Below, in pieces: positions 1,640 through 63,929 of a stretch of DNA of 64,000 nucleotides. The notes below the pieces were generated by a model. That model had not been told where the DNA came from. It was given only the letters and a program-made list of their open reading frames with translations, and did not search any database. Position 1 is the stretch's first letter. Each line of letters begins with the position of its first letter. Made by a program: the position numbers and the translations under genes. The DNA comes from Halichondria panicea (taxonomy: Eukaryota; Porifera; Demospongiae; Suberitida; Halichondriidae), in contig NC_087377.1 of the NCBI RefSeq assembly GCF_963675165.1, positions 15,744,198 through 15,808,197 of the forward strand, read 5' to 3'.

Positions 1640-4591
1640 CTAATTAGCACTTACAGAGAAGAAATCAAGAGTTTGAATAATAGTATACACATCTGTCTGT
1701 CCTCCGGCTACAATTACCTCTCCACTAGGAAGTACTGAGCATGTGCAGCAATATCGTGCAGTAGGCAGGTCTCCCACTTTCACCCATCTCCTGGTGTCAG
1801 GCTGGTAGAGATGGATCGATGAACTTGGGTTGAATCTGTCGTCTCGTCCACCAACAGCTAATAGTGACCTCCCAATACTGAGAGGAGCTGACCAGAAGAG
1901 TGGTACTTCCTGTAAGGTCTGCCAGAGAGTGGGTGTGTCCAGGTTGGAAAGGGCTTTTGCAATGAGTTCATTGAGGTCGACGTGGTGCACTGTCTTGATT
2001 GCCCTAGTGTGATCGAACCCTTCCATTAGGTAGAGGGTGTTTCCTATGAGAGTCGATTTTAGAAATGATCGTGGGCTAGGTAGTGACTGAGCAATGTACC
2101 ATCTTCTTGATGCAACGTCCAAGACCTCCACAGAAGAGATATGTCCTTTATCATCATTCCCACCAGCTACAATGATGTGGTTGTTGAAGGAGACAGCTGT
2201 TGAGGAAGAACGAGCAATGTTTATTGGTGGGTACGGGTGAGTCCATTCCCCTGACTCAAACACTGCAAGCTGATTGGTGCGTTTGTTGTTATATGAATCA
2301 CATCCTCCAACCAGCACTAGTCGATTAGCGAGTGATGTCATAGCGAACCATTTGGCAGTGTACTCTGGTAGTTTGGTCCATTGATCTTGCTCGAGCTTCA
2401 TCACTGTACACTTGTCACGATCATTGATTGCAGTACCTCCACCAACATACACCGTGTCATCGATAACAACACTCTGTACCGAGTCACCCATCTTGATTGG
2501 CATGTCTTTTCCTCTTCTCCATTTCAGAGTGAGTGGAGGTCTCAACTCTCTGGGAGGGGGACCCTGAATAATGAATGAGTGTAATTAGGATAGTGTCTAC
2601 TAACAAGCGAGTGTTACTTGTAGCAATAATTGCATGCACACTAAATCACTTTCTCTAATTAGCTTAAGAGGCCACGCCCACCAGTCTAATAGAATGTACA
2701 GTACGATTATAAGAGATCAAAGCTTCTACTATAGCTCTGCAATAATATAATGGTGCATTTTGTCTCACCTGTCTCTGCTGTTGAATGATGGCGTCTCTCC
2801 TGACCAGCTCAGCATCTTTGTGCTGAATTTGTTCCCGGTGTGCCTGTACAGGGTAACGTTGGTGGAAATCTTTGAATTAAAACACAGACGTGAAATCATT
2901 AGTGGAATTCTACAACAGAATGAGAACAAAAAAACAATTTCTGCTAAAGGAAGTACATAATTATAGGCACACTCAAACGGATGTGTAGTTACGGCTTAAC
3001 ACATGAGACAGCATCCATGCATGTTAAGGTACAATACTATTGTTGCTGTGGGAATCTCATTATCACACTACATGTACGCACCTTCTTGACTGGTTGAGGG
3101 TCCTTTGACTCCCTCTTTGTTGCCTCCACTGTGTCCGAGCCTCTTGTATCTAAAAGAAAGATTATAGGATATCAAGTTGGCCAAACACTCATACCTTTAG
3201 TGTCCTTCATTTGAGTGAAGGTTGTCGTGCTCGTTCTTGTGTCTTTAGACATCTCCTCAACACCTTCTAGTTTGAGTTTGCTCAGATCCCTGTACATGAC
3301 ATGTACATACTCGTAATTACTATAATATTATATTAAATTATATACATAGGGCCCATGCTTGTTAGCTAATTAACTGACAGTATATAATTATTATAATTAT
3401 TATAATTATGCCAGGAGTACGGGTATACAGTGCCTCTTCAAGAACTTACTGTTCCAGCAGAAATGTCTCCACCTCATCCGTACTTCCACAGGTGAGAACT
3501 TTGACCCCCATCGCACTGAGAGCTGTCTGTACAGTAGGGGACACTGGGTAGATATGCTTGGCAACAGCTACAGTGATGAGAAAGTGGAGCTCCAAGCAGC
3601 CTTGTCTGACTGAACAGAGTTGTAGCGCTGCTCTTTGTAGACGAAGTGCTTTAGCAATTCTCGGAATCAGCCTTTTCACATACTCCAGTGTGGCTACTCG
3701 CTCAGTGCACTTGATAACAAACACTTTAGCCGTTTTGATACGAGATTTTGAAGAGAAAGCTTCGGCCGGAACTTCAAACATATTTCGCTTACAGAACTGA
3801 TCAAGTGCAGAGCAATACTCACGCAGTTGTGCTTGGTCGTCTGGTGATCCCAGCAGCTCGATGAGGTACTGCACTATCTCATAATTGAAGAAGGAGATGT
3901 AATCACGTAGAGTCATGAAGACTTGGGCCAAATTTTTGGCATTTTTGATTTCTTGCTTATCTTGTGGATCAAGCACTTTGACTCCAATCCCGTCGTTAAA
4001 AGCGTCGAGGCTGAGAACAAAATCTTTAATCTTATCCAATGGGATCCGTTTTTCAAATGACTTTTGGATAATTAGAGTGAAAGCAGTGAAACTAATCATC
4101 ATTTTCGTTGTATCCGCTATGAGCCGATCCTCCATTTCAATTCTATCATCCTCATCAAGGCTAGAGGTGTCGAGGTGTGGGAAGCTGAAGGATGTCGGAG
4201 CCTCTGGTGGAGGTTGCTGGTGTGGGGGTGGAGAGAGTTGTGGCTGTTCAACACGGCTGGTCGCAGTCTTGTGACGCTCGTAACTATCATGTAGCTTCTT
4301 GACAACATCGTCAGTAGAAGGGCAAGCGATGGCAACAATAAAGCCGTGGAATACACTGGGATTGAGCTTAATTCGATGGATGATAGTATCCAGAATCTTT
4401 CGAGATTTATCCGAGTCCATAACTCCATTTAGTCTAGAGTACTCGAGAACTTCATCTGGTATGTAGCCATTGGAGAAGAGGCTATCAGCGTATGCAGCAG
4501 GTTGAGCTTTGAAGGTGGACACCAATGCTTCAAAGTTCTCTTGAAAGGACAGGTACTCAGGAGAATGGTCGGGGGTTGCTTGAGTGGCCAT
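1640..4591 (-). CDS. K1: CARD-like, helical region and Kelch-propeller protein
   Basis: There are five coding exons, all with GT-AG borders: 4591-3450, 3289-3195, 3149-3082, 2843-2769 and 2563-1640. They join in frame to a protein of about 767 residues. Residues 1-100 resemble a CARD (helical, with FEALVSTFKAQPAAYADSLF and a SRKILDTIIHRI helix). A proline-rich linker lies near 122-142, followed by an alpha-helical region to about 380 that I cannot assign to a named family. Next come a charged linker, a 25-residue charged helix (HREQIQHKDAELVRRDA) and a six-bladed Kelch propeller from about 461. There is no signal peptide or membrane segment, so it is probably cytosolic. Signalling through the CARD after ligand binding by the propeller is inference. 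K4 is its closest paralogue in the N-terminal half. Confidence 0.85.
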
Positions 4592-5174
4592 TGACAGTTA
4601 GTTAGGCCAAGCAAAGTCAATTTGTAGTTTCTCAGACTATTATTCCTAAAATAGCAAGCGGATTGAGGCATTTGATAAATATTAATGATAATAATAATTA
4701 TTAATAGAATTTTAATTGAAAACACTCCCCTAACTTCCTCAATAAGCGGAAGTGCATAATTTTTATTTATTAATTTTAGTCATAATTATATTCATGACCA
4801 AAAAACCATACAAATTTATCCTTTTATTTTCTTTTAGTGCCTTTAATTTGAGGTCACGTGATATTTAACTTTTTGTAAAGCTGTCAATTTCCAAGCGCGA
4901 GGGCCTGAGAGACTTTGCATGGCCCTAGCCTGTGAGTGGACCAGGGAATTTCATACAATGGCATTGGTGCACATCAATTTTAGCATGTGTACAATCTAAA
5001 AGGCTCATTATAAAATATATATATATAATTTATCTATAATATTATTATAATTTTCTTTGAATAATATAATTTATATTATTCAGTGAAGTTAAACTGAGAC
5101 TCTTGATCAATTGCGACTTTGCATGAGTCAGCATGAGATGGGCTATAGAAAAAAATCTTCTGAGATATGAATCA
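4592..5174. other. upstream region of K1
   Basis: This is AT-rich sequence containing the presumed K1 promoter. Relative to the K4 upstream region, about 320 bases (4603 to about 4925) are extra here: the K4 sequence passes directly from the start region to the block around CCTGTGAGTGGACC. I see no gene. Confidence 0.4.
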
Positions 5175-10121: not shown

Positions 10122-13100
10122 CTAATTAGCACTTATAGAGAAAAAATCAACAGTTTCAAATGAATCTGTCCGTCCTCCGGCTACAATGACCTCTCCACTA
10201 GGAAGTACTGAGCATGTGCAGCAATATCGTGTAGTAGGCAGGTCTCCCACTTTCACCCACCTCCTGGTGTCAGGCTGGTAGAGGTGGATCGATGAACTTG
10301 GGTTGGCTCTGTCTTCCCGCCCACCAACGGCTAATAGTGACCTCCCAATACTGAGAGGAGCTGACCACACGAGTGGTACTTCCTGTAAGGTCTGCCAGAG
10401 AGTGGGTGTGTCCAGGTTGGAAAGGACCTTTGCAATGAGTTCATTGAGGTTGACGTGGTGCACTGTCTTGGTTGCCCACCCAGTGTGATCGTACCCTCCC
10501 ATTAGGTAGAGGATGTTTCCAATGAGAGTCGATTTCAGTACTGATCGTGGGTTAGGTAGTGACTGAGCAATGTACCATCTTCTTGATGCCACGTCCAACA
10601 CCTCCACAGAGGAGGTACATTCTTTATCATCACGCCCACCAGCTACAATGATGTAGTTGTTGAAGGAGACAGCTGTTGAGGAATGGCGAGCAATGTTCAT
10701 TGGTGGGTACGGGTGAGGCCATTCCCCTGATTCAAACACTGCAAGCTGATTGGTGCGTTTGTTGTTTCTTGGATCATATCCTCCCACCAGCACTAGTCGA
10801 TTAGCGAGTGATGTCATAGCGAAGTACCTGGCAGTGTACTCTGGTAGTTTGGTCCATTGATCTTGCTCGAGCTTCATCACTGTACACCTGTCACGATCAT
10901 TGACTGCATAGCCTCCACCAACATACACCGTGTCACCGATAACAACACTCTGTACCAGGTAGCCCATTCCGATTGGCATGTCTTTTCCTCTTCTCCATTT
11001 CAGAGTGAGTGGAGGTCTCAACTCTCTGGGAGGGGGACCCTGAATAATGAATGAGTGTAATTAGGATAGTGTCTACTAACAAGCGAGTGTTACTTGTAGC
11101 AATAATTGCATGCACACTAAATCACTTTCTCTAATTAGCTTAACCCTTTAACCGTCGGATTCTTAATTAACAGTGAAGTGAAATGTCTGTAAATTCTCTA
11201 TCGGGTTTCCAGAGCAATAAAATGCCTAGCAACCATATACCAATAGAATGCCCATACAACAAGGAAATAAAATGGTGCAACATGTGTTGCCATAACAACC
11301 ACGGTTATTACGCTCACCCGTTTTTATCATTTTAAGTGCTCGGCCAGCGGTGAGATAAAATCCAAAAATTTTTTTTATGGATCAGCCTATCATATGGTAT
11401 AAAGGCTTGACTAAGCTTGATTTTCACATCATATGAATGTAACAGTGCTAAGATATATCAATTTGAAGTACAATACGTACATGTATTACTATATCGGTGA
11501 ACGATCTATGAAATTTACAAGCTCACCTACAGACTGTTCATTACTGCTAATTCTATTTTAGCTATACTATACTCACTACTGATATTCTAGCTATACTATA
11601 CTACTTGCCAGAGTCACACAGTGAGCCCTCTCCTGGTCTTTCACCGTCCTGGTCAATAGCGCTAGCGTCTAGGTCCATGTCATGCATGTCCTCAGTCCCA
11701 GACAGTTCATCAGCGTCTAGCATAAAGCTGGTAGCCTTTGGGAGGTATCCTACTATCCCCTCTCCTTCATAGGCACTGTCATCACCAGAGGAGACATCGC
11801 CATTGCTGTCCTCAAGCTGTTCAAGCACATCGGCACAAGTAAACAACCTAGCCATAGCTATAAACTTTCTCTAATTAGCTTAAGAGGCCACGCCCACCAG
11901 TCTAATAGATGTACAGTACGATTACAAGAGATCAAAGCTTCTACTATAGCTCTGCAATAATATAATGGTGCATTTTGTGTCACCTGTCTCTGCTGTTGAA
12001 TGATGGCGTCTCTCCTGACCAGCTCAGCATCTTTGTGCTTAATCTGTTCCCTGTGTGCCTGTACAGGAGAACGTTGGTGGAAATCAAACACAGACGTGAA
12101 TATCATTAGTGGAAATTCTACAACAAAACGAGACAATCTTCACTAAAGGAAGTACATAATTATAGGCACACTCAAACGGATGTGCAGTTACGGCTTAACA
12201 CATGAGACAGCATCCATGCATGTTAAGGTACAATACTATTGTTGCTGTGGGGATCTCATTATCACACTACATGTACGCACCTTCTTGACTTGTTCAGTGT
12301 CCTTTGACTCCTTCTTTGTTGCTTCCACTGGGTCCGAGCTTGTTGTCAGGTAAGTATCTAAAATCGATACCAACATTAATAGACGGATGATGATTTTTTC
12401 GTTAGGGTTACAGTTAGCTGAAACGTAAAACACATATCATTGACTCACAGATGTCCCTGGCAGATGGTCTCCTCCTCATGTCTTCTTGCAAGCAACTGTC
12501 GATAAGCTTCCTCAACCTGTGTGTGTGAGGTATCTGGGCAACATGGAATGATCGATCTTCCACAGATTTGATCGTCTTCAGCTTGCAAACAATCTGCATC
12601 ATAATCGCCCCTAGAGAGAACACATCCAAGCTATTATCGTAATTATCCTTGTCCAATCGAATAGCCTCAAGAGGTAGATACCCCATACGGTGACCAATGG
12701 CTGTGAGGGTGTGGCTAAGCTTGGAGGGATCGTATAGCCGTGACATGCCAAAGTCGGATATCTTTGCGACAGGCACTGGTCGTGTAAGCTTCAGCAAGAC
12801 GTTATCACCACAGAGGTCACGGTGGATAATCTGCTTGCTGTGAATGTAGGCCAGACCACAAGCCATGTCTTTGGAGAGGCTAATTTCACATTCGCTAGTG
12901 AGGGACTCTTCATCAAGGCCGGAGAAATAGGATCTCAGATTGCAATCCATCAGCTCAACAACGAGGATTGTACTCCCTGATTTGGGGTGCTTGGCAGTCG
13001 ACAAAAACTGAACAACATTTCGGTGCTGGAACGACTTGAGAAAATCACTCTCACGATCAATTGCATCGCTAGCTTCTTCGTTTTTGCCGACTGAAATACT

Positions 13101-13619
13101 TGCCTGCATCTCCATAGCATCGTGAAGCAGCACTTTGACTGCACATATCTCGCCCTTGTAGCTGCCTTTGAAGACTGCTCCAAATGCACCTTTACCGAGA
13201 CGCTCGTCTAGGAAAACAGTCAAATCATCGTTGATCTTCTGGCGATCTTGGTCAACTGTAGAATGTTGTGTGGGGTAAAATATTATGCCGAATTGATGCT
13301 TACCTTGTAATTTAGGGTTGTTTGGACCAGTAGACTGTAGATGATCTCTCTCGATGGTCCTGGCTATGTGAACTTCACTCACGATGGGACTTGACAAAGC
13401 CTCCACCATCTCTTTCCAGCTCTTCCCTCCTTCATTAAGCCATTTAATCAAACCCTCACGATAGCAGTCATCAGGATTGTTGCTCCATTCTTTCCCGATG
13501 CTGTGGATTGTATCCGAGGGTACGTCAAGAATAAGCAAGATGTTTCGCCACTTAATTCGAGCATCAAACGTGACGAGATACAATCTCTTTAGATCTGCTA
13601 TTGTGAGATAGTCAGACAT
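10122..13619 (-). CDS. K2: death domain, kinase and Kelch-propeller protein
   Basis: There are five coding exons with GT-AG borders: 13619-13304, 13255-12449, 12357-12281, 12058-11984 and 11039-10122. They join in frame to 730 residues. Residues 1-95 form a death domain (WRNILLILDVPSDTI, then a C-x-E-GL-x-WL helix). The kinase occupies about 118-373: glycine loop GKGAFG at 126-131, ATP lysine K146, helix-C glutamate E174, HRD at 250-252, N257 and DFG at 273-275. All key residues are present, so catalysis is expected. The HRDL and LPLEA forms suit a tyrosine-kinase-like group member of the RIPK/IRAK sort. A linker, the charged helix and a six-bladed Kelch propeller (from 426) follow. It is probably a cytosolic sensor kinase. 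The intron before the Kelch exon contains a piggyBac remnant. Confidence 0.88.
11124..11883 (-). mobile_element. piggyBac remnant with one end and N-terminal ORF
   Basis: One terminus is seen at 11140: TTAA followed by CCCTTTAACCGTCGG, a piggyBac-style end with its TTAA target. On the minus strand an 84-residue ORF (11855-11601) starts MARLFTCADVLEQLEDSN and is acidic, like the N-termini of piggyBac transposases. The DDD catalytic core and the other end are gone. The 20-base host sequence ACTTTCTCTAATTAGCTTAA stands on both sides (11124-11143 and 11864-11883), which is longer than a normal TTAA duplication. The other K genes lack the insertion. Confidence 0.7.
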
Positions 13620-31027: not shown

Positions 31028-33786
31028 CTAATCACTTATAGAAAAGAAATCCACAATTTGAATACGATCAGAATATAGTTCTGTCTGTCCTCCGGCTACA
31101 ATGACCTCTCCACTAGGAAGTACTGAGCATGTGCAGCCGTATCGTGCAGTAGGCAGATCTCCCACTTTCACCCACCTCCTGGTGTCAGGCTGGTAGAGGT
31201 AGATCGATGAACTTGGGTTGCGTCTGTCGTCCCGTCCACCAACGGCTAAGAGTGACCTCCCAATACTGAGAGGAGCTGAGAACACGAGTGGTACTTCCTG
31301 TAAGGTCTGCCAGAGAATGGGTGGGTCCCGGTTGGAAAGGGCAATTGCAACGAGTTCCTTGAGGTTCAAGTTGTCCGATTTGGTTGCCCCAGAAAGGGCA
31401 TTGGCAATAAGTTCATCGAGGTTGACGTGGAGCACCGACTTGGTTTCCCCAGTGTGATCCAACCCTCCCATTAGGTAGAGGGTGTTTCCTATGAGAGTCG
31501 ATTTCAGTACTGATCGTGGGCTAGGTAGTGACTGAGCAATGTACCATCTTCTTGATGCCACGTCCAACACCTCCACAGAGGAGGAGAACTGTCCTTTAAT
31601 ACCCCCACCAGCTACAATAATGTGGTTGTTGAAGGAGACAGCTGTTGAGGAAAAACGAGCAATGTTCATTGGTGGATACGGGCGAGTCCATTTTCCTGCT
31701 TGAAACACTGCAAGTTGATTGGTTTCTTCACTGGTTCCCGGATCCTGTCCTCCCACCAGCACTAGTCGATTAGTGAGTGATGTCATAGAGAACCACTTGG
31801 CAGTGTACTCTGGTAGTTTGGTCCATTGATCTTGCTTGAGCTTCATCACTGTACACTCGTCACAATTGTCATCAAGACTAATATTTCCGTACCCTCCACC
31901 AACATACACCGTGTCACTGATAACAACACTCCGTACCGCGCCACCCATCTTGGTTGGCAAATTTTTTCCTCTTTTCCATATCAGAGTGAGTGGAGGTCTC
32001 AACTCTCTGAGAGGGGGACCCTGAATAATGAATGAGTATAATTAATTAGGATAGTGTCTACTAACAAGCGAGTGTTACTTGTAGCAATAATTGCATGCAC
32101 ACTAAATCACTTTCTCTAATTAGCTTAAGAGGCCACGCCCACCAGTCTAATAGAATCTATGGTACAGATATATCGGATTAAAGTTTCTACTATATATAGC
32201 TCTACAATAATAAAATAAGAAACTGGTGCATTTCGTCTCACCTGTCTCTGTTTTTGACAATTTTCGCTAACGGAGTACATAATTATAGGCACACTCAAAC
32301 GGATGTGTAGTTACGGCTTAACATACAAGACAGCATCCATGCATTGCTGCTGTGGGAATCTCATTCACACACTACATGTACGCACCTTCTTGACTGGTTG
32401 AGTGTCCTTGGACTCTCTCTTTGTTGCCTCCAATGTGTCTGAGCATCTAGTCAGGTCATCATCTAAAAATCGAACCAACATTAATAAAGACGAATTTGAT
32501 TTTTTCGTAGAGTGTATAGTGTTAGCTGTAACAGCTAAAATGTAAATTGACTCACAGATGTCCCTGGCAGATGGTCTCCTCCTCATGTCTTCTTGCAAGC
32601 AACTGTCGATAAGCTTCCTCAACCTGTGTGTGCGAGGGATCCGGGCAACATGGAATGATCGATCTTCCACAGATTTGACTGTCTTTAGCTTGCGAACAAT
32701 CTGTACCATAATCGCCCCAAGGGAAAAAACATCCACGCTATTATCGTAATTCTCCTCATCCAATCGAATAGCCTCGAGAGGTAGATACCCTCTACAGTGA
32801 CCAACAGCTGTGAGGGTTTGGCTAAGCTTGGAGGGATCGTATAATCGTGACATACCAAAGTCGGAAATTTTTGCGATAGGCATTGGTTGTGTAAGCTTCA
32901 GCAAGACGTTATCGCCACAGAGGTCACGGTGGATAATCTGCTTGCTATGAATGAAGGCCAGACCACAAGCCATGTCTTTGGAGAGACTAATTTCACATTC
33001 GCTAGTGAGGGACTCTTCACCAAGGCCAGAGAAATAGGATCTCAGATTGCAATCCATCAGCTCAACAATGAGGATTGTACTACCTGATTTGGGGTGCGTG
33101 GCAGTCGACAGAAACTGAACAACGTTTGGGTGCTGGAACGACTTGAGAAAATCACTCTCACGATCAATTGCATTGCTAGCTTCTTCGTTTTTGCCGATTG
33201 AAATACTTGCCTGCATCTCCACAGCATCGTGAAGCAGAACTTTGACGGCACACATCTCGCCCTTGTAGCTGCCTTTGAAGACTGCTCCAAATGCACCTTT
33301 ACCAAGAAGCTCGTCTAGGAAAACGATCAAATTGTCGTTGATCAACTGGCGATTTTGGTCATCTGCAGAACATTATGTGTGTATGTCACGTGTGTGTGCG
33401 TGTGTGTGTGTGGGGGGGGGGGCAGGGGGTGAAATTATACCAACTAATTATGAGATATGCATTCCTGTGCTGAACTAATGCTTACCCTCTGAAGTAGACT
33501 GTAAATGATCTTTCTCGATGGTCTTGGCTATGTGAAATTCACCCACGATGGGACTAGACAAAGCCTCCACCATATCTTTCCAGCTTTTCTCTCCTTCTGC
33601 ATTAAGCCATTCTTTCAAACCCTCACGATTGCAGTCATCAGGAATGTTGCTCCATTCTTTCCCAATGCTGTCAATTGTAGCTGAGGGTACATCAAGAATA
33701 AGCAAGATGTTTCGCCACTTGATTCGAGCATCAAACGTGACAAGGTACAATCTCTTTAGATCTGCTATTGTGAGATAGTCAGACAT
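31028..33786 (-). CDS. K3: death domain, kinase and Kelch protein lacking the charged-helix exon
   Basis: The coding exons are 33786-33486, 33362-32556, 32462-32386 and 32020-31028, all GT-AG, joining in frame to about 725 residues. The death domain is at about 1-95. The kinase retains the GKGAFG loop, the AVK lysine, HRDLCGDN and SDFG. The 25-codon charged exon of the other K genes is deleted: the region at 32235-32275 keeps only its last codons and donor. Because the flanking introns are phase 0 the remaining exons still join in frame. The Kelch exon is longer, with an internal repeat (NLDELIANALS then NLKELVAIALS) between blades 4 and 5 and a longer loop in blade 1. K3 is the most diverged Kelch of the set and lacks plus-strand USF or acidic-gene neighbours. 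Confidence 0.85.
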
Positions 33787-41334: not shown

Positions 41335-44290
41335 CTAATTAGCACTTATAGAGAAGAAATCAACAGTTGGAATATAATTAATATATGCACTTGTCTGTCC
41401 TCCGGCTACAATGACCTCTCCACTAAGAAGTACTGAGCATGTGCAGCTGTATCGTGCAGTAGGCAGGTCTCCTACTTTCACCCACCTCCTGGTGTCAGGC
41501 TGGTAGAGGTGGATCGATGAACTTGGGTTGCCTCTGTTGTTTACTCCACCAACGGCTAATAGTGATCCCCCAATACTGAGAGGAGCTGACAGCCTGAGTG
41601 GTACTTCCCGTAAGGTCTGCCAGAGAGTGGGTGTGTCCAGGTTGGATCGGGCTTTTGCAATGAGTTCATTGAGGTCAACATGGTACACTGTCTTGGTTAC
41701 TGTCACATTTATATCCCAACCTCCCATTAGGTAGAGGGTGTTTCCTATGAGAGTCGATTTCAGTTCTGATCGTGGGTTAGGTAGTGACTGAGCAATGTAC
41801 CATCTTCTTGATGCCACGTCCAACACCTCCACAGAGGAGGTATATCCTTTATCATCAAACCCACCAGCTGCAATGATGTCGTTGTTGAAGGAGAGAGCCG
41901 TTGAGGAAGAACGAGCAATGTTCATTGGTGGGTACGGGTGAGTCCATTCCCCTGACTCCAACAGTGCTAGTTGATTAGTGCATTTGTTATTTCTCGGATC
42001 AGTTCCTCCCACCAGCACTAGTCGATTAGCGAGTGATGTCATAGCAAACCACTTGGCAGTGTACTCTGGTAGTTTGGCCCATTGATCTTGCTCGAGCTTC
42101 ATCACTGTACACATGTCACGATCATTGTCTGCAATACCTCCACCAACATACACCGTGTCACCGATAACAACACTCTGTACCGAGCCATCCATCTTGATTG
42201 GCATGTCTTTTCCTCTTCTCCATTTCAGAGTGAGTGGAGGTATCAACTCTCTGGGAGGGGGACCCTGAATAACGAATGAGTGTAATTAGGATAGTGTCTA
42301 CTAACAAGCGAGTGTTACTTGTAGCAATAATTGCATGCACACTAAATCACTTTCTCTAATTAGCTTAAGAGGCCACGCCCACCAGTCTAATAGAATGTAC
42401 AGTACGATTATAAGAGATCAAAGCTTCTACTATAGCTCTGCAATAATATAATGGTGCATTTTGTCTCACCTGTCTCTGCTGTTGAATGATGGCGTCTCTC
42501 CTGACCAGCTCAGCATCTTTGTGCTCGATCTGTTCCCTGTGTGCCTGTACAGGGGAACGTTGGTAGATATCTTTGAACACAGACGTGAATATCATTATAG
42601 TGGAAAATTCTACAACAGAATGAGAACAAACAACAATTTCCGCTAAAGGAAGTACATAATTATAGGAACACTCAAACGGATGTGTAGTTACGGCTTAACA
42701 CATGAGATAGCATCCATGCATGTTAAGGTACAATACTATTGTTGCTGTGGGAATCTCATTATCACACTACATGTACGCACCTTCTTGACTGGTTGAGTGT
42801 CCTTTGACTCCCTCTTTGTTGCCTCCAATGTGTCCGAGCCTCTTGTATCTAATTTAAGAGAGATTATAGGATATCAAGTTGGCCAAACACTCACCTTTAG
42901 TGACCTTCATTGGAGTGAAGGTTGTCGTGCTTATTCTTGTGTCTTTAGACATCTCCTCAATACCTTCTAGTTTGAGTTTGCTCAGATCCCTGTACGTGAC
43001 AGGTACATACTTGTAATTATTATAATAATACGAATATTATATTACTGTAACTATATACGGCCCATGCTTCTTAACTTACGGTATAATTATTATATTATGC
43101 CAGGAGTATGGAGTATGGGTATATAGTACCTCTTCAAGAACTTACTGTTCCAGCAGAAATGTCTCCACCTCATCCGTACTTCCACAGGTGAGAACTTTGA
43201 CCCCCATCACACTGAGAGCAGCCTGTACAGTAGGGGACACTGGGTAGATACGCTTGGCAACAGCTACAGTGACGAGAAAGTGAAGCTCCAAGCAGCCTTG
43301 TTTGACTGAACGGAGTTGTAGCGCTGCTCTTTGTAGACCAAGTGCTTCAGCAATTCTCGAAGTCAGCCTTTTCACATACTCCAGTGTGGCTACTCGCTCC
43401 GTGCATTTGAGAACAAATACTTTGGCCGTTTTCATACGAGATTTTGAAGAGAAAGATTCGGCCGGAACTTCAAACACATTTCGATGACAGAACTGATCAA
43501 GTGCAGAACAATGCTCATGCAGTTGTGCTTGGTCGTCTGGTGATCCCAGCAGCTCGATGAGGTACTGCACTATCTCATAATTGAAGAAGGAGATGTAATC
43601 ACGTAGAGTCATGAACACTTCAGGCAAATTTTTGGCATTTTTGATTTCTTGCTTATCTTCTGGATCAAGTACTTTGACTCCAATCCCGTCGTTGAAAGCG
43701 TCAAGGCTGAGAATAAGATCTTTAATCCTTTCCAAAGGGATTCGTTGGTTTTCAAATGATCTTTGGATAATTAGAGTAAAAGCAGTGAAACTAATTATCA
43801 TTTTCCTTGTATCACGTATGAGCCGATCCTCCAATTCAATTCTAATATCTTCATCAAGGCTAGAGGTGTCGAGGTGTGGGAAGCTGAAGGACGTCGGAGC
43901 CTCTGGTGGATGTTGCTGGTGTGGGGGTGGAGAGAGTGGTGGCTGTTCAACACGGCTGGTCGCAGTCTTGTGACGTTCGTAACTATCGTGCAGCTTCTTG
44001 ACAACATCGTCAGTAGAAGGGCCAGCGATGGCAGCAATAAAGCCATGGAATACACTGGGATTGAGCTTAATTCGATGGATGATGGTATCTAAAATCTTTC
44101 GAGACTTATCGGAATCCATGACTCCATTCAGTCTAGAGTACTCGAGAACTTCATCTGGTATGTAGCCATTGGAGAAGAGGCTATCAGCATATGCAGCAGT
44201 TTGAGCTTTGAAGGTGGACACCAATGCTTCAAAGTTCTCTTGAAAGGACAGGTACTCTGGAGAATGGTCGGGGGTTGCTTGAGTGGCCAT
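41335..44290 (-). CDS. K4: CARD-like, helical region and Kelch-propeller protein
   Basis: The exons are 44290-43146, 42989-42895, 42848-42781, 42544-42470 and 42264-41335, in frame, giving about 770 residues. The order of parts is as in K1: CARD-like residues 1-100, proline-rich linker (SPPPHQQHPPEAPTS), helical region to about 381, charged linker and helix, and Kelch from 462. Its N-terminal half is nearly identical to K1, while the propeller differs at many loop positions (for example GGWDINVT in blade 4 and GGVNNRGN in blade 5). No broken frame, so it is probably functional. Upstream sequence to about 45.3 kb matches that of K1, showing duplication of the whole unit. Confidence 0.85.
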
Positions 44291-45384
44291 TGACAGCTAG
44301 CCTGTGAGTGGACCAGGGCATTTCATACAATGGCATATGGTGCACATCAATTTAGCATGTAGAATCTAAAAGGCTTATTATATTTTTTAGTGAAGTTAAA
44401 CTGAGACTCTTGATCAATTGCAACTTTGAGATAGGCTAGCTATACTGCGAAAAAAATCTTCTGAGATATGAATCATGCACTCACTCCTTATATATAGGCC
44501 CTAGCTCTAAGTCATGGGATTAGATAGGAAGTGAACTGGTGAAGGACCCACAAAACCATTGATAATCTTCCTTCAGTGCATGCATGCATAGATACGGATA
44601 CGATGCTCTGTGATGCATGCGCCCTTATTGATAGACTGGCTAGGCTAGTTAGTCTGGCCACGCCCTCCCATACTTCTTGTCGAGACTAAGAGTGGCAGTG
44701 ACACAGCTACAAGACACGCTCTTTTCCTATTCTATCTCGATCCAATGCTGAATCAGCAAGCCACGTGGTGCCTCTGGAGAAACAACAAATCACTTTTAAT
44801 TTTTAAGCATGGAGCCAGTTAAATTGCCACATCTGTATTTGGTGGATGCTTTGTCCAGTCCTACTGTGGGCCATAGTGACATAGCCAGGACCATGGAGAG
44901 AGACCATTGCTGAGGAGGTGGGGAGGGCAAGTTCCTGGTCAATCAGATGATCTTACATGACAAAGCTGCTCGTAAAGATGCAGAGTCTGATGACAAACTC
45001 AGGATGATGAGTGAGTGATAGTGTTGTTATTTAATAGCCTGATAGGATATACCTACTGCCAACATTTACATGTACACTGTTCCTATAGGACGCATTTGAT
45101 TTTGTTTGGATTGTTTAGAATTAAAGCTGTTTGAAACTTTTAAATAGTATGTTGAAGAGTGCGCCAGTAGACTACCATCATGTAGCAAGCTCTGACAAGG
45201 GCTCTAATGACACGAGTATTTGACCTTATAGCCAGGGGTCATGTTATGGTGAAGTTGCTTGAGACTATTATAGCCATTGCCTTGGTTACATGTGCAGTGT
45301 TTGAAGACGTGCTTGTGTGTGTAGCGTTATTATTGTTTGGCCATAATTCGTAGTAAGTACTGTTCACATGTTTTCTCCTTTCTA
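44291..45384. other. duplicated upstream segment of the CARD-type genes
   Basis: It is homologous to 4929-7325 but lacks the insertions at 5175-5981 and 6648-7116 and the tandem duplication near 6427. It therefore serves as the empty-site reference for those events. Contains the presumed K4 promoter. Confidence 0.6.
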
Positions 45385-53855: not shown

Positions 53856-56800
53856 TTAATCGCTTATACAAAAGAAATCAACTGTTTGAAGATAATTACC
53901 ATATAGTTTTGTCTGTCCTCCGGCTACAATGACCTCTCCACTAGGAAGTACTGAGCATGTGCAGTTGTATCGTGCAGTAGGCAGGTCTCCCACTTTCACC
54001 CACCTCCTGGTGTCAGGCTGGTAGAGGTGGATCGATGAACTTGGGTTGCGTCTGTCGTCCGCTCCACCAACGGCTAATAGTGACCTCCCAATACTGAGAG
54101 GAGCTGAATGCACGAATGGTACTTCCTGTAAGGTCTGCCAGGGAGTGGGTGCGTCCAGGTTGGAAAGGGCCTTTGCGATGAGTTCATTGAGGTCGACGTG
54201 GTGCACTGTCTTGGTTGCCCTAGTGTGATCGAACCCTCCCATTAGGTAGAGGGTGTTTCCTATGAGAGTCGATTTCAGTACTGATCGTGGGTTAGGTAGT
54301 GACTGAGCAATGTACCATCTTCTTGATGCCACGTCCAACACCTCGACAGAGGAGATATGTCTTTTATCATCATGCCCACCAGCTACAACGATGTGGTTGT
54401 TGAAAGAAACAGCTGTTGAGCAAACACGAGCAATGTTCATTGGTGGGTACGGGTGAGTCCATTCTCCTGCTTCAAAAACTGCAAGTTGATTAGTGCGTTT
54501 GTTGTTTCTTGGATCCTGTCCTCCCACCAGCACTAGTCGATTAGCGAGTGATGTCATAGCGAACCACTTGGCAGTGTACTCTGGTAGTTTGGTCCATTGA
54601 TCTTGCTCGAGCTTCATCACCGTACACTTGTAAAGATCATTGTCTGCAAACCCTCCACCAACATACACCGTGTCACCGATAACAACACTCTGTACCGTGG
54701 TACCCATCTTGATTGGCATGTCTTTTCCTCTTCTCCATTTCAGAGTGAGTGGAGGTCTCAACTCTCTGGGAGGGGGACCCTGAATAATGAATGAGTGTAA
54801 TTAGGATAGTGTCTACTAACAAGCGAGTGTTACTTGTAGCAATAATTGCATGCACACTAAATCACTTTCTCTAATCAGCTTAAGAGGCCACGCCCACCAG
54901 TCTAATAGAATGTACAGTACGATTATAAGAGATCAAAGCTTCTACTATAGCTCTGCAATAATATAATGGTGCATTTTGTCTCACCTGTCTCTGCTGTTGA
55001 ATGATGGCGTCTCTCCTGACCAGCTCAGCATCTTTGTGCTTAATCTGTTCCCTGTGAGCCTGTACAGGGGAACATTGGTGGAAATCTTAGAATAGAACAA
55101 GAAACAATTTGCGCTAAAGGAAGTACATAATTATAGGCACACTCAAACGGATGTGTAGTTACGGCTTAACACATGAGACAGCATCCATGCATGTTAAGGT
55201 ACAATACTATTGTTGCTGTGGGAATCTCATTCACACACTACATGTACGCACCTTCTTGACTTGTGGAGTGTCCTTTGACTCCCTCGTTGTTCCCTCCACT
55301 GTGTCCGAGCCACTTGTCAGGTCTACATCTGCTGTCAAGTTATTATCTGGTTGAGTGTCCTCCCGAGGTTGTATCTGTAGAGACTTCACTAGATGATCAA
55401 TTTCTCTGGGTTGAACTTCAAACTGTTCTTGTGGAGTGGTCACTTCTTCCAGTCCACGAACTTGCTCAGCTTGAAGCCGATCGATAGATGCTTGTGAATG
55501 AGTGTCTTTCTCAGATATTGGATGTAAAAGTTGATTTACTTGAGTATCCTTTGACTCCCTCTTTGTTGCCTCCACGGTGTCTAAGTCGCTTGTCAGCGAA
55601 GCATCTAAAGTAAAAGTTAAATGTTCAATAAGGAATTTTTTCTGGAACAAAATTTCGGAAAAACACACAATTGACTCACAAATTATTTGCGGTAAAATGT
55701 ACAACACATGTATTTAATTGACTCACAGATGTCCCTGGCAGATGGTCTCCTCCTCATGTCTTTTTGCAAGCAACTGTCGATAAGCTTCCTCAACCTGTGT
55801 GTGTGAGGTATCTGGGCAACATGGTCTAATCGATCTTCCACAGATTTGACCGTCTTCAGCTTGCAAACAATCTGTACCATAATCGCCCCAAGGGAAAAAA
55901 CATCGACACTATTATCATAATTCTCCTTGTCCAATCGAATAGCCTCGAGAGGTAGATACCCCATACGGTGACCAACGGCCGTGAGGGTGTGGCTAAGCAT
56001 GGAGGGATCATATAGCCGTGACATGCCAAAGTCGGAAATCTTTGCAACAGGCACTGGTCGTGTTAGCTTTAGCAAAACGTTATCGCCACAGAGGTCACGG
56101 TGGATAATCTGCTTGCTGTGAATGTAGGCCAGACCACAAGCCATGTCTTTGATGAGGCTACTTTCACATTCGCTAGTGAGGGACTCTTCATCAAGGCCGG
56201 AGAAATAGGATCTCAAATTGCAATCCATCAGCTCAACAACGAGGATTGTACCACCTGATTTGGGGTGCTTAGTAGTCGACAAATACTGAACAACGTTTGG
56301 GTGCTGGAGTGACTGGAGATACTCACACTCACGATCAAATGCTTTGCTGGCTTCTTCACTTTTGCTGGTTGGGAAACCTGTCTGCATTTCTACAGCCTCG
56401 TAAATTAGAAGTTTGACTGCACAAATCTCGCCCTTGTAGCTGCCTTTGAAGACTGCTCCAAATGCACCTTTACCAAGTAGCTCGTCTAGGAAAACAGTTA
56501 AATCATCGTTGATCTTCTGGTGATTTTCGTCTACTGTAAAAACATTGTGTGTGTGTGTGTGTGTGTGTTTATGAGAGGGACCCGGGTGAATATTATAGTA
56601 GCTAGCTAATAAACTAAGCATCATGTATGAGATATGCATTCCTGTTGAACTAGTGCTTACCCTCTGACTTCACATCAGTAGGATTGCTTGCATCAGTAGA
56701 CTGTAGATGATCTTTCTCGATGGTATTAGCTATGCCAACGTGGCCTACAATGGGACTGGACAAAGCTTTGACAACATCTTCCCAGCGTCTCTCACCACCT

Positions 56801-57910: not shown

Positions 57911-59424
57911 AGATACTACACGTAGGGACAGAGCCGACCGACGTGGAGACGTTTACTATCGCTACTGAAGAGGTGGTACCCAGTTCACAGTTTGAGATAG
58001 AGATAAGTCAGAGTGATGATGGGGAGAGTGTGGAGCAGCTACAGGCCAGTGACTTGGGCCCTAACTTTGGTCTTGTGCATGATACCCAGGTAACACACAC
58101 ACACACACACTTCACACCAAGTAACATATAAAAACTAGCACTTAAAACGCTTTTTTAAAGGTATCCTAGGACTTTTCGTTTTGTTGGACGTCGGGACAGG
58201 ATCAACGAGCTCATCAAGGTACTGGCTCAGATAGTGCCTGCTTGTCAGAAGAAAGACGCAACTACTGGTTCCATTGTCGGGGTGAGTGTGTGTGTCTGTG
58301 AGTGTGTGTACTAAAGTACTATTGGAAAAACCATTGAAATATCACTAACTTGGTTTTTTTTAATTACTATTATTGCTAAGCATGCATTTAGTGCAGAGCA
58401 CAGTGTTACGTTAGTTACTAGTATCATAGAATCCAGCAGAGTTCATCGTATATAACACATGTAGTTAGTTACACATAAAATAAAATTGCTATTTTTTAAC
58501 AGCAACTAAGCATGTTTTTTTGATATCTCCACGTACATGTCTCACCCTCACATCATGTTTCCCTGACTGCAGTATGTGTACAGCAAGGGAACGGTACTAG
58601 ACAAGACAGTGGACTACTTGAAAGAGCTCGTGTTTCAAAACGAACAACTCACAGCCAGTGCCAAAATCGCAGAGAAATCAACCAACGCTTTAGCAATGCT
58701 TCAAAACCAGATCCAAGTCCTAGAGAAAGAGAACGCATTTCTTCGAGCACAGATTATCCAGTTTGGAATCGATGCAGCTGCTTCCTCTGGTCAAAAGCAA
58801 CCTAACCAGCAACTTCTAAACTCTCCTCTGGCCCAGAGTCTCCTCAACACAGTAGTGACCCACTCACCACCGACCACTTCTGTCTCCCCTCCACAACAAT
58901 CCACACAACAAACTAACAATGTAGCAGCACAGCAACTACTACTATCCCTGGCACAGAACCTCACCAACAGCCCTCTGTTGACCTCACTGGCACACAACCA
59001 AACACCAAGTTCTATCTCATCCCTACAACAACTTGGTGGCATTGTCTCCAGCCTGACACCTTCGCAAGCACAACCTATGCACTTGTCAGCTTCGTCACAA
59101 TTCTCTCCTCTCTTACAATCATCGCTGCCGACTGGAGCCTCTAATCCAAACACACCACTCTTAAGCTCACTCGTACAAACTCTATCCTCCATTGCGAGCA
59201 CGACCACTTCTCCGTCCACTCCTGTACCGAAATCCTCCATGCTGTCACAAGCCAACAACAATGGCGGGGGTGGTGGTGGTGGTGGTCTCTCTGCCGCGGC
59301 TGCTGCTAGTCTGCTCAACACTCTGATTCTGGCTCAGAATGTGCTCACAAGCAACTCAAGTGCTGGTAGCCCCGGGCAAGATTCAATGTCTATGGAAACG
59401 GTGGACCAATCCTCTCAACAGTAG
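57911..59424 (+). pseudogene. U3: USF-like gene with damaged basic region and intact C-terminus
   Basis: Exon 57911-58089 encodes the acidic region. The next three exons and the start of the basic-region exon are deleted: at about 58185 the sequence jumps from intron into GRRDRINELIKVLAQIV, so the acceptor and the HNEVERR residues are gone. Exon 58573-59424 is fully open for 284 codons counting the stop. It holds helix 2, the leucine zipper with EKSTNALAMLQNQ, and a long Gln/Ser/Thr-rich tail with repeated LLNSPLAQ and LLLSLAQN motifs and a run of glycine, ending ETVDQSSQQ. Without the basic residues it should not bind E-boxes. If translated it could only dimerise. Confidence 0.75.

Positions 59425-61009: not shown

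Positions 61010-63929
<2,920 letters not shown>

Follow-up and report, generated by a model that had tools for sequence, protein, structure and literature searches.

The question raised by this locus of the sponge Halichondria panicea is whether the residues that differ between neighbouring Kelch exons mark a binding surface under positive selection, and what such a surface could recognise. The window, i.e. the whole stretch of 64,000 nucleotides that was analysed (C1:15744198-15808197, contig NC_087377.1), belongs to one 131.5 Mb assembly of 39 contigs. It carries six Kelch exons, K1 to K6, all on the minus strand. The positions of these exons, of neighbouring features and of the main variable residues are collected in Table 1.

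The Kelch exon family

The original prediction listed residues that vary between the six exons at equivalent positions of each blade. Every listed string is present in the codon alignment of the window exons, and the observation is confirmed. The residue that follows GG in K1 to K6 reads TYYIFD in blade 1, CYQTQN in blade 2, NRGFHY in blade 3 and FYLWFS in blade 4. The pairs SS/HS/FS/SS/VC/IF follow IAR, DS/YL/GA/GS/TT/ST follow MG in blade 1 (the G itself being D in K4), FW/VW/VF/RL/VH/VF precede SAPLS, and C/C/G/S/N/C follow a motif that is (A/T)RY. The accompanying statement that the flanking DNA is nearly identical stands in general; it is weaker for K3, only 77% identical to K2, because K3 is more diverged overall. 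Further variable positions, additional to those strings, are the BC-loop end of each blade (K2 residues 51, 95, 142, 189, 245 and 294) and, in blades 5 and 6, the residue that follows GG (K2 residues 241 and 290). In many of the variable codons, substitutions affect positions 1 and 2 and leave position 3 constant, as in ACC/TAC/GGC/GAC/ATC/GCC at residue 27 in the wider set of exons.

The insert of K3 (window 31343-31399) lies in the CD loop of blade 4 and has, by eye, the appearance of a partly duplicated adjacent helix (LNELIA-like). On the opposite strand, inside the array, a 285-residue frame (window 58567-59424) resembles by eye a leucine-zipper transcription factor exon and is without Pfam match.

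Table 1. Features of the window. Positions are those of the window; residues are counted from the K2 splice acceptor (window 11039, minus strand).
Feature	Position	Strand	Remark
K1 Kelch exon	1640-2584	-	3' of 383-residue head
Alternative N-terminal head (383 aa) 5' of K1	3446..4597	-	no Pfam match
K2 Kelch exon frame	10122-11060	-	coding from acceptor AG at 11039
K2 Kelch exon, spliced-in part	10122..11039	-	305 codons and stop, six-bladed propeller
K2 residue 273	10221..10223	-	blade 6 DA-loop site, after RY
K2 residues 241 to 245	10305..10319	-	blade 5 BC loop; 241, 244 and 245 selected
K2 residues 224-225	10365..10370	-	blade 5 DA-loop sites before SAPLS; 225 not robust with framework tree
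K2 residue 183	10491..10493	-	blade 4, first after GG
K2 residue 167	10539..10541	-	blade 4, entry to strand A
K2 residue 136	10632..10634	-	blade 3, first after GG
K2 residue 119	10683..10685	-	blade 3 DA-loop site, after IAR
K2 residue 88	10776..10778	-	blade 2, first after GG; 17 codons, 16 amino acids
K2 residue 44	10908..10910	-	blade 1, first after GG
K2 residue 27	10959..10961	-	blade 1 DA-loop site; 14 codons, 12 amino acids, third base C in 112/113 exons
Coiled-coil-like 28-residue exon, K2 gene	11984..12067	-	in-phase join to Kelch exon, donor GT
TKL-type protein kinase domain, K2 gene	12441..13244	-	HRD and DFG motifs
Death-domain-like N-terminal domain, K2 gene	13305..13619	-	weak similarity to FADD
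K3 Kelch exon	31028-32041	-	most diverged of window exons, 19-residue insert
Kinase domain 5' of K3	32548..33351	-	
K4 Kelch exon	41335-42285	-	DNA identical to C1:16723172 copy, other arm
Alternative 384-residue head 5' of K4	43142..44296	-	
K5 Kelch exon	53856-54800	-	
Kinase domain 5' of K5	55719..56519	-	
K6 Kelch exon	61010-61954	-	
Kinase domain 5' of K6	62574..63377	-	

A search of the genome with the K2 protein gave 463 candidates; 127 were scored and all 127 match. A 26-mer of the Kelch exon, allowing up to 3 mismatches, occurs at 173 places in the genome, as compared to 0 for the reversed control. The 127 scored copies comprise 102 in two blocks on C1, 18 on contig C6, 4 on C28 and 3 near C1:11.0 Mb. 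With K3 included, there are 54 minus-strand copies in one C1 block (15.48-16.13 Mb), the arm to which the window belongs, and 49 plus-strand copies in the other (16.71-17.39 Mb). Some exons, such as K4 and its counterpart at C1:16723172, are identical between the two opposed arms, pointing to a recent inverted duplication or to an assembly effect; such exact copies could partly be assembly artefacts.

For sequence analysis, 122 loci were fetched and, together with the window exons, yielded 128 exons. Removal of L001, L014 and L024 (the same as K2, K1 and K6) and of L025 (early stop) left 124, and removal of 11 exact duplicates left 113. The analysed copies were drawn from the 127 scored matches, with 3 of those left out and K3 added. 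The 113 distinct exons show a median pairwise DNA difference of 8.6% and 99 distinct residue combinations at 11 core positions. Elsewhere in the genome there is a large NLR-like set of at least 102 NACHT matches, many of them clustered (C7, C13, C14 and others), in a search that also gives a signal in 11 of 14 control genomes, above the cut-off in 3. Wnt exons, a mark of animals, gave 10 matches in this genome and none in 14 control genomes; compactness and the NACHT set would suit a demosponge.

Selected codons and the propeller face

Site-wise rates were estimated at 303 sites with a FUBAR-like grid of an MG94-type codon model (12x12 rates). Using the 113 exons, 55 sites had P(beta>alpha) of at least 0.95 and 38 showed the reverse. 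Omega averaged over the whole Kelch exon was 0.91, i.e. below 1, and permitting beta>alpha increased lnL by 339 (2dlnL 679). At each of the 17 strongest codons, between 8 and 16 different amino acids occur. When separate trees were used for six segments, 61 sites passed, 47 of which are shared with the single-tree set of 55. A tree of framework codons, from which selected codons were excluded, gave 60 sites, among them 45 of the 47.

Positive selection had been predicted at 11 sites named from the six window exons only, so that a test on the 107 exons outside the window avoids circularity. All 11 passed in this test, with P(beta>alpha) of 0.964-1.000 and a posterior mean beta of 1.9-10.3. In 29 independent closest pairs of the same exons, 111 nonsynonymous differences and 1 synonymous difference were counted at the named sites, as compared to 462 and 146 elsewhere. 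With the framework tree, 10 of the 11 hold; the exception is site 225 (P 0.20), owing to a synonymous rate that is raised too. Repeated on 20 exons that belong to other clusters, the test gives a P of at least 0.95 at 8 of the 11 sites and of 0.92 at site 44; sites 28 and 120 fall short, with 0.36 and 0.10 between them. Counted without a tree over all pairs of the 113 exons, uncorrected pN/pS was 3.33 at the named codons and 0.44 in the framework. Overall, we regard diversifying selection at these codons as nearly certain.

The K2 Kelch exon matches Pfam Kelch_1 (E 3.4e-27) and has the characteristics of a six-bladed Kelch propeller. With 39 family rows, the best AlphaFold2 model had a mean pLDDT of 82.3 and a pTM of 0.85; two of the five models were above 80 pLDDT and three at 40-45. 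A Foldseek search with the best model (best E 5.5e-16) returned natural or designed Kelch propellers at all of ranks 1-10, and the best 50 of 1542 matches comprised designed and human Kelch proteins (KLHL3, KLHL20, NS1-BP, KLHL12 and KEAP1).

Kelch domains are described as having the BC and DA loops on one face and the AB and CD loops on the other (PMC6650413). We set the loop and strand classes from the secondary structure of the model with the selected sites already known, and strand d in blades 2, 4 and 6 was positioned or shifted partly with the help of the conserved Trp; in these classes, the 47 selected sites fall at 28/62 BC, 10/45 DA, 0/14 AB, 3/28 CD, 6/142 strand and 0/12 terminal positions. 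Mapped by strand order on the AlphaFold2 model and not by measured distances, 38 of 107 BC and DA positions are thereby selected, as compared to 3 of 42 in the AB and CD loops. The 17 strongest sites comprise 12 in BC loops, 4 in DA loops and the first residue of a strand A, with none in AB or CD. Beta is low (0.7-2.2) at the 9 of 47 sites outside BC and DA (three CD, six strand), except at 167. Three registers recur across the blades, namely the point at which strand A is entered (either or both of a neighbouring pair of residues), the first residue after GG and the last residues before strand C. The original prediction had placed the variable sites on one face, scattered neither over both faces nor over the core, and with 38 of the 47 sites in BC and DA loops by strand-order mapping this was borne out in the main. 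Its interpretation as positive selection on a binding surface largely holds.

In KEAP1, compared here by loop class, the substrate face and its pocket are reported to be built from DA and BC loops (PMC4668279), and the contacts with Nrf2 are given as Ser363, Arg380, Asn382, Arg415, Arg483, Ser508, Ser555 and Ser602 (PMC12266349). By analogy with the KEAP1 and KLHL structures, this suggests that the variable face is a putative ligand face.

The ligands of such a face could be endogenous. Each paralogue would then have gained a substrate of its own, in the style of BTB-Kelch proteins, and the variety would reflect past functional divergence, with neither an arms race nor self/non-self recognition. 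Indeed, the faces of KEAP1, KLHL3 and KLHL12 are described as binding endogenous proteins (PMC4668279, PMC6650413), and the selection signal alone leaves the ligand unnamed. The BTB-Kelch proteins (KEAP1, KLHL2, KLHL3, KLHL12, KLHL20) share the six-bladed fold of the array, are among its nearest relatives by sequence and by fold, and have as binding face the same DA and BC loops that form the variable face in the array. However, the 10% most conserved positions of KEAP1, KLHL2, KLHL3 and KLHL12 are reported to cluster in the binding pocket, as are the most conserved positions of K13 (PMC6650413), whereas the pocket is the most variable patch in the array. This contrast is not decisive because orthologues are compared there and paralogues here. 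Also against endogenous targets, the near-identical exons K6 and L023 differ at 7 nonsynonymous codons, 6 of them selected sites, and at 1 synonymous codon. We consider divergence towards endogenous substrates possible, if rather unlikely.

Mutation, exchange and the other exons

Diversifying selection on the face was compared with the rest of the gene in 18 genes whose kinase and death-like exons could be read. Selected sites numbered 2 of 228 in the kinase exons (2dlnL 12.7) and 0 of 79 in the death-like exons (2dlnL 3.2), as compared to 31 in the Kelch exons of the same genes (2dlnL 112.6). Mean pN/pS was 3.29 at the 11 sites, 0.47 in the Kelch framework, 0.36 in the kinase and 0.43 in the death-like exons, with pS values of 0.085 for the Kelch framework, 0.168 for the kinase and 0.265 for the death-like exons. 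The near absence of the signal from kinase and death-like exons is a direct observation, like its concentration on one face by topology.

At the 17 strongest sites, mean heterozygosity was 0.51, 0.60 and 0.23 for codon positions 1, 2 and 3, as compared to 0.04, 0.04 and 0.07 at 256 others. Among pairs with equal first and second bases and the same amino acid, third-base differences amounted to 0.088 at the 17 sites and 0.058 at the 256 others. Because these silent differences are near background, the excess sits in the bases that alter the protein, and a regional mutation hotspot is ruled out. A mutational mechanism, either hypermutation or a template-driven retroelement, could still target the codons themselves, selection being secondary. 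Retroelement diversification in bacteria produces an NNY pattern, which sites 27, 46, 119, 136, 245 and 273, with first and second bases mixed and the third nearly fixed, superficially resemble. However, all four third bases occur at the 17 strongest sites, also in NNA and NNG codons, which random mutation would make stops, and the near-background silent third bases indicate that the neighbourhood is not hypermutable. Such a mechanism is very improbable.

Exchange between copies is apparent. In a Sawyer-type fragment test, 0 of 200 permutations reached the observed statistic. This statistic and a Kelch framework pS at half that of the kinase are both expected if exchange homogenises the Kelch exons; uneven rates along the exon could contribute to the fragment statistic. 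Counts in young independent pairs were made at the 47 sites, which were picked from the same data and are circular in this respect: nonsynonymous and synonymous differences at these sites and elsewhere were 13:2 and 38:22 in the 12 youngest pairs (DNA difference of at most 2%), 38:2 and 46:33 in the 14 pairs up to 4%, and 336:8 and 236:142 in the 30 pairs up to 6%. Since the concentration is weaker in the youngest pairs, part of the variety may have been moved by exchange and not created by new mutation. The jump in concentration with pair age may reflect exchange of face segments between copies.

An artefact of relaxed constraint on surface loops, or of recombination misleading the trees, is already largely refuted and deserves hardly any weight: exchange can inflate tree-based rates and two kinase sites also pass, but relaxed constraint is ruled out by pN/pS above 1 and by the conserved AB and CD loops, which by topology are surface loops too, and a recombination artefact by the kinase control, the tree-free counts and the segment trees.

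Heads, relatives and a possible role in recognition

An AG precedes the Kelch exon in 125/125 records with upstream sequence (three window exons being counted twice). Matches to the coil exon were found in 44 of 51 sequences over 2.5 kb, with no match in K3, L053 and L063; the exon ends in GT in 27/27 complete matches, 21 partial matches being set aside. From these conserved splice sites, head, coil and Kelch exon would be joined in one transcript.

A death-like plus kinase head stands 5' of K2, K3, K5 and K6, and a 383-residue module 5' of K1 and K4. Assigned by coordinates, the 103 main-array exons comprise 61 with the kinase head, 12 with the 383-residue head and 30 without assignment (second-kinase copies included). 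The 60 PDB matches listed for the kinase, which we take to belong to the TKL group, are mainly B-Raf, plus IRAK4, LIMK1 and plant receptor-like kinases, the first being labelled EGFR and two being TAO kinases. A profile of 14 death-like copies gave weak PDB matches, all FADD (11 chains, best E 0.0018), and the domain has no Pfam Death match up to E 10. The combination of a death-domain-like region with a TKL-type kinase, and the presence of IRAK4 among those listed matches, recall IRAK/Pelle; unlike IRAK/Pelle, the array family has over a hundred copies, and IRAK is not known to carry a Kelch or hypervariable tail.

The 383-residue head has no Pfam match up to E 10. Its PDB matches, with E values of 0.17 and above, were taken as chance, and its structure model (pLDDT 42.5) was unusable; the N-terminus is, to our eye, CARD-like. 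The genome holds 119 matches to this head or to parts of it. Its second half (residues about 130-370) is widely found and appears to represent a separate, large domain family without a name. Pfam gave no BTB or BACK match in the K2 Kelch exon, the K2 and K6 kinase frames and the K1 and K4 heads, and no NACHT in the array exons scanned.

Four copies (L055, L063, L065 and L066) have a second kinase upstream, which shares about 33% identity with the first across 161-170 residues and in L063 lies beside a long coiled-coil-like frame. L059 has Kelch and coil exons, and none of three head queries matched within 4.5 kb upstream.

A clean split of the Kelch sequences by head type was rejected. Of the 113 exons, 67 had a head label, and their framework tree, in which 42 of 64 inner branches are weak, requires 9 label changes, as compared to 2 at the least and 13.3 on average after shuffling. 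Head types therefore form clusters in part and are intermingled in part. Head swapping between Kelch exons is only suggested, because of the weak branches and because the well-supported ones force few changes, namely 2 of the death-kinase label, 2 of the second kinase and 1 of the 383-residue head.

As closest working analogue we regard the NACHT-WD40 (NWD) het genes of Podospora anserina. Positive selection is reported there at four WD40-repeat codons located in the d-a loop and the b-c turn (PMC1805685), and the same recognition module is reported to carry varied N-terminal heads (PMC4986451). Like het-d, het-e and het-r as described, the sponge array would combine a beta-propeller recognition domain, selection on one face, exchange within the family and different heads. 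Unlike them, it has Kelch and not WD40 repeats, no NACHT in the exons scanned, and resides in an animal genome. In addition, the Podospora repeats are described as near-identical within and between genes, in a family of 10, whereas the blades of one sponge exon differ mutually and the diversity lies between about 170 paralogues. The zebrafish NLR-B30.2 family, with nearly 400 clustered copies, shuffled N-termini, gene conversion and positive selection in the C-terminal recognition domain (PMC4852459), appears to share clustering, exchange and a selected recognition domain with the array; it is made of NACHT, LRR and B30.2 domains, the array of a Kelch propeller on a kinase. Because NACHT is absent from the exons scanned, the Kelch array belongs to neither the Podospora NWD nor the zebrafish NLR family.

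Sponges are described as capable of self/non-self discrimination of remarkable specificity (PMC5450542). Among the matches listed, the sponge receptor literature deals with NLR, SRCR, Ig and similar receptors; no title or abstract opening in this set, which covers few subscription journals and does not prove absence, names a hypervariable Kelch-kinase family. Two Kelch-motif transcripts are reported to have fallen after exposure of sponges to microbial patterns (PMC6208332), which is suggestive only.

Taken as a whole, the explanation that we consider probable is a germline repertoire of receptors in which propellers are carried on signalling heads. The Kelch exon would provide the recognition end of signalling proteins that form a very large germline family, its conserved six-bladed scaffold presenting three or more variable positions in each blade, chiefly on the DA/BC face. 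Diversifying selection would favour replacements on this face, and duplication with exchange would keep the scaffold and the silent sites alike. The same Kelch tail, with the coil exon before most copies, would stand behind at least two heads, with a distant second kinase in some. A ligand bound by the variable face would draw the heads together and start kinase or death-fold signalling. We infer a cytosolic location, ligand-driven activation and a non-self role, and hold recognition of non-self to be reasonably likely. That an animal independently built an anticipatory Kelch repertoire (about 170 germline copies, the majority with a face-residue combination of their own, a shared tail, several heads) for intracellular self/non-self or microbial recognition, in the manner of the fungal WD40 proteins, has in our view an even chance.

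If transcripts and alleles agree, the array would offer a compact, testable candidate, in which a few residues per blade are predicted to set specificity on a Kelch scaffold whose structural biology is already well known. If true, it would also be a case of striking convergence, fungal WD40 and animal Kelch propellers having acquired their variety in the same pair of loop classes (d-a and b-c).
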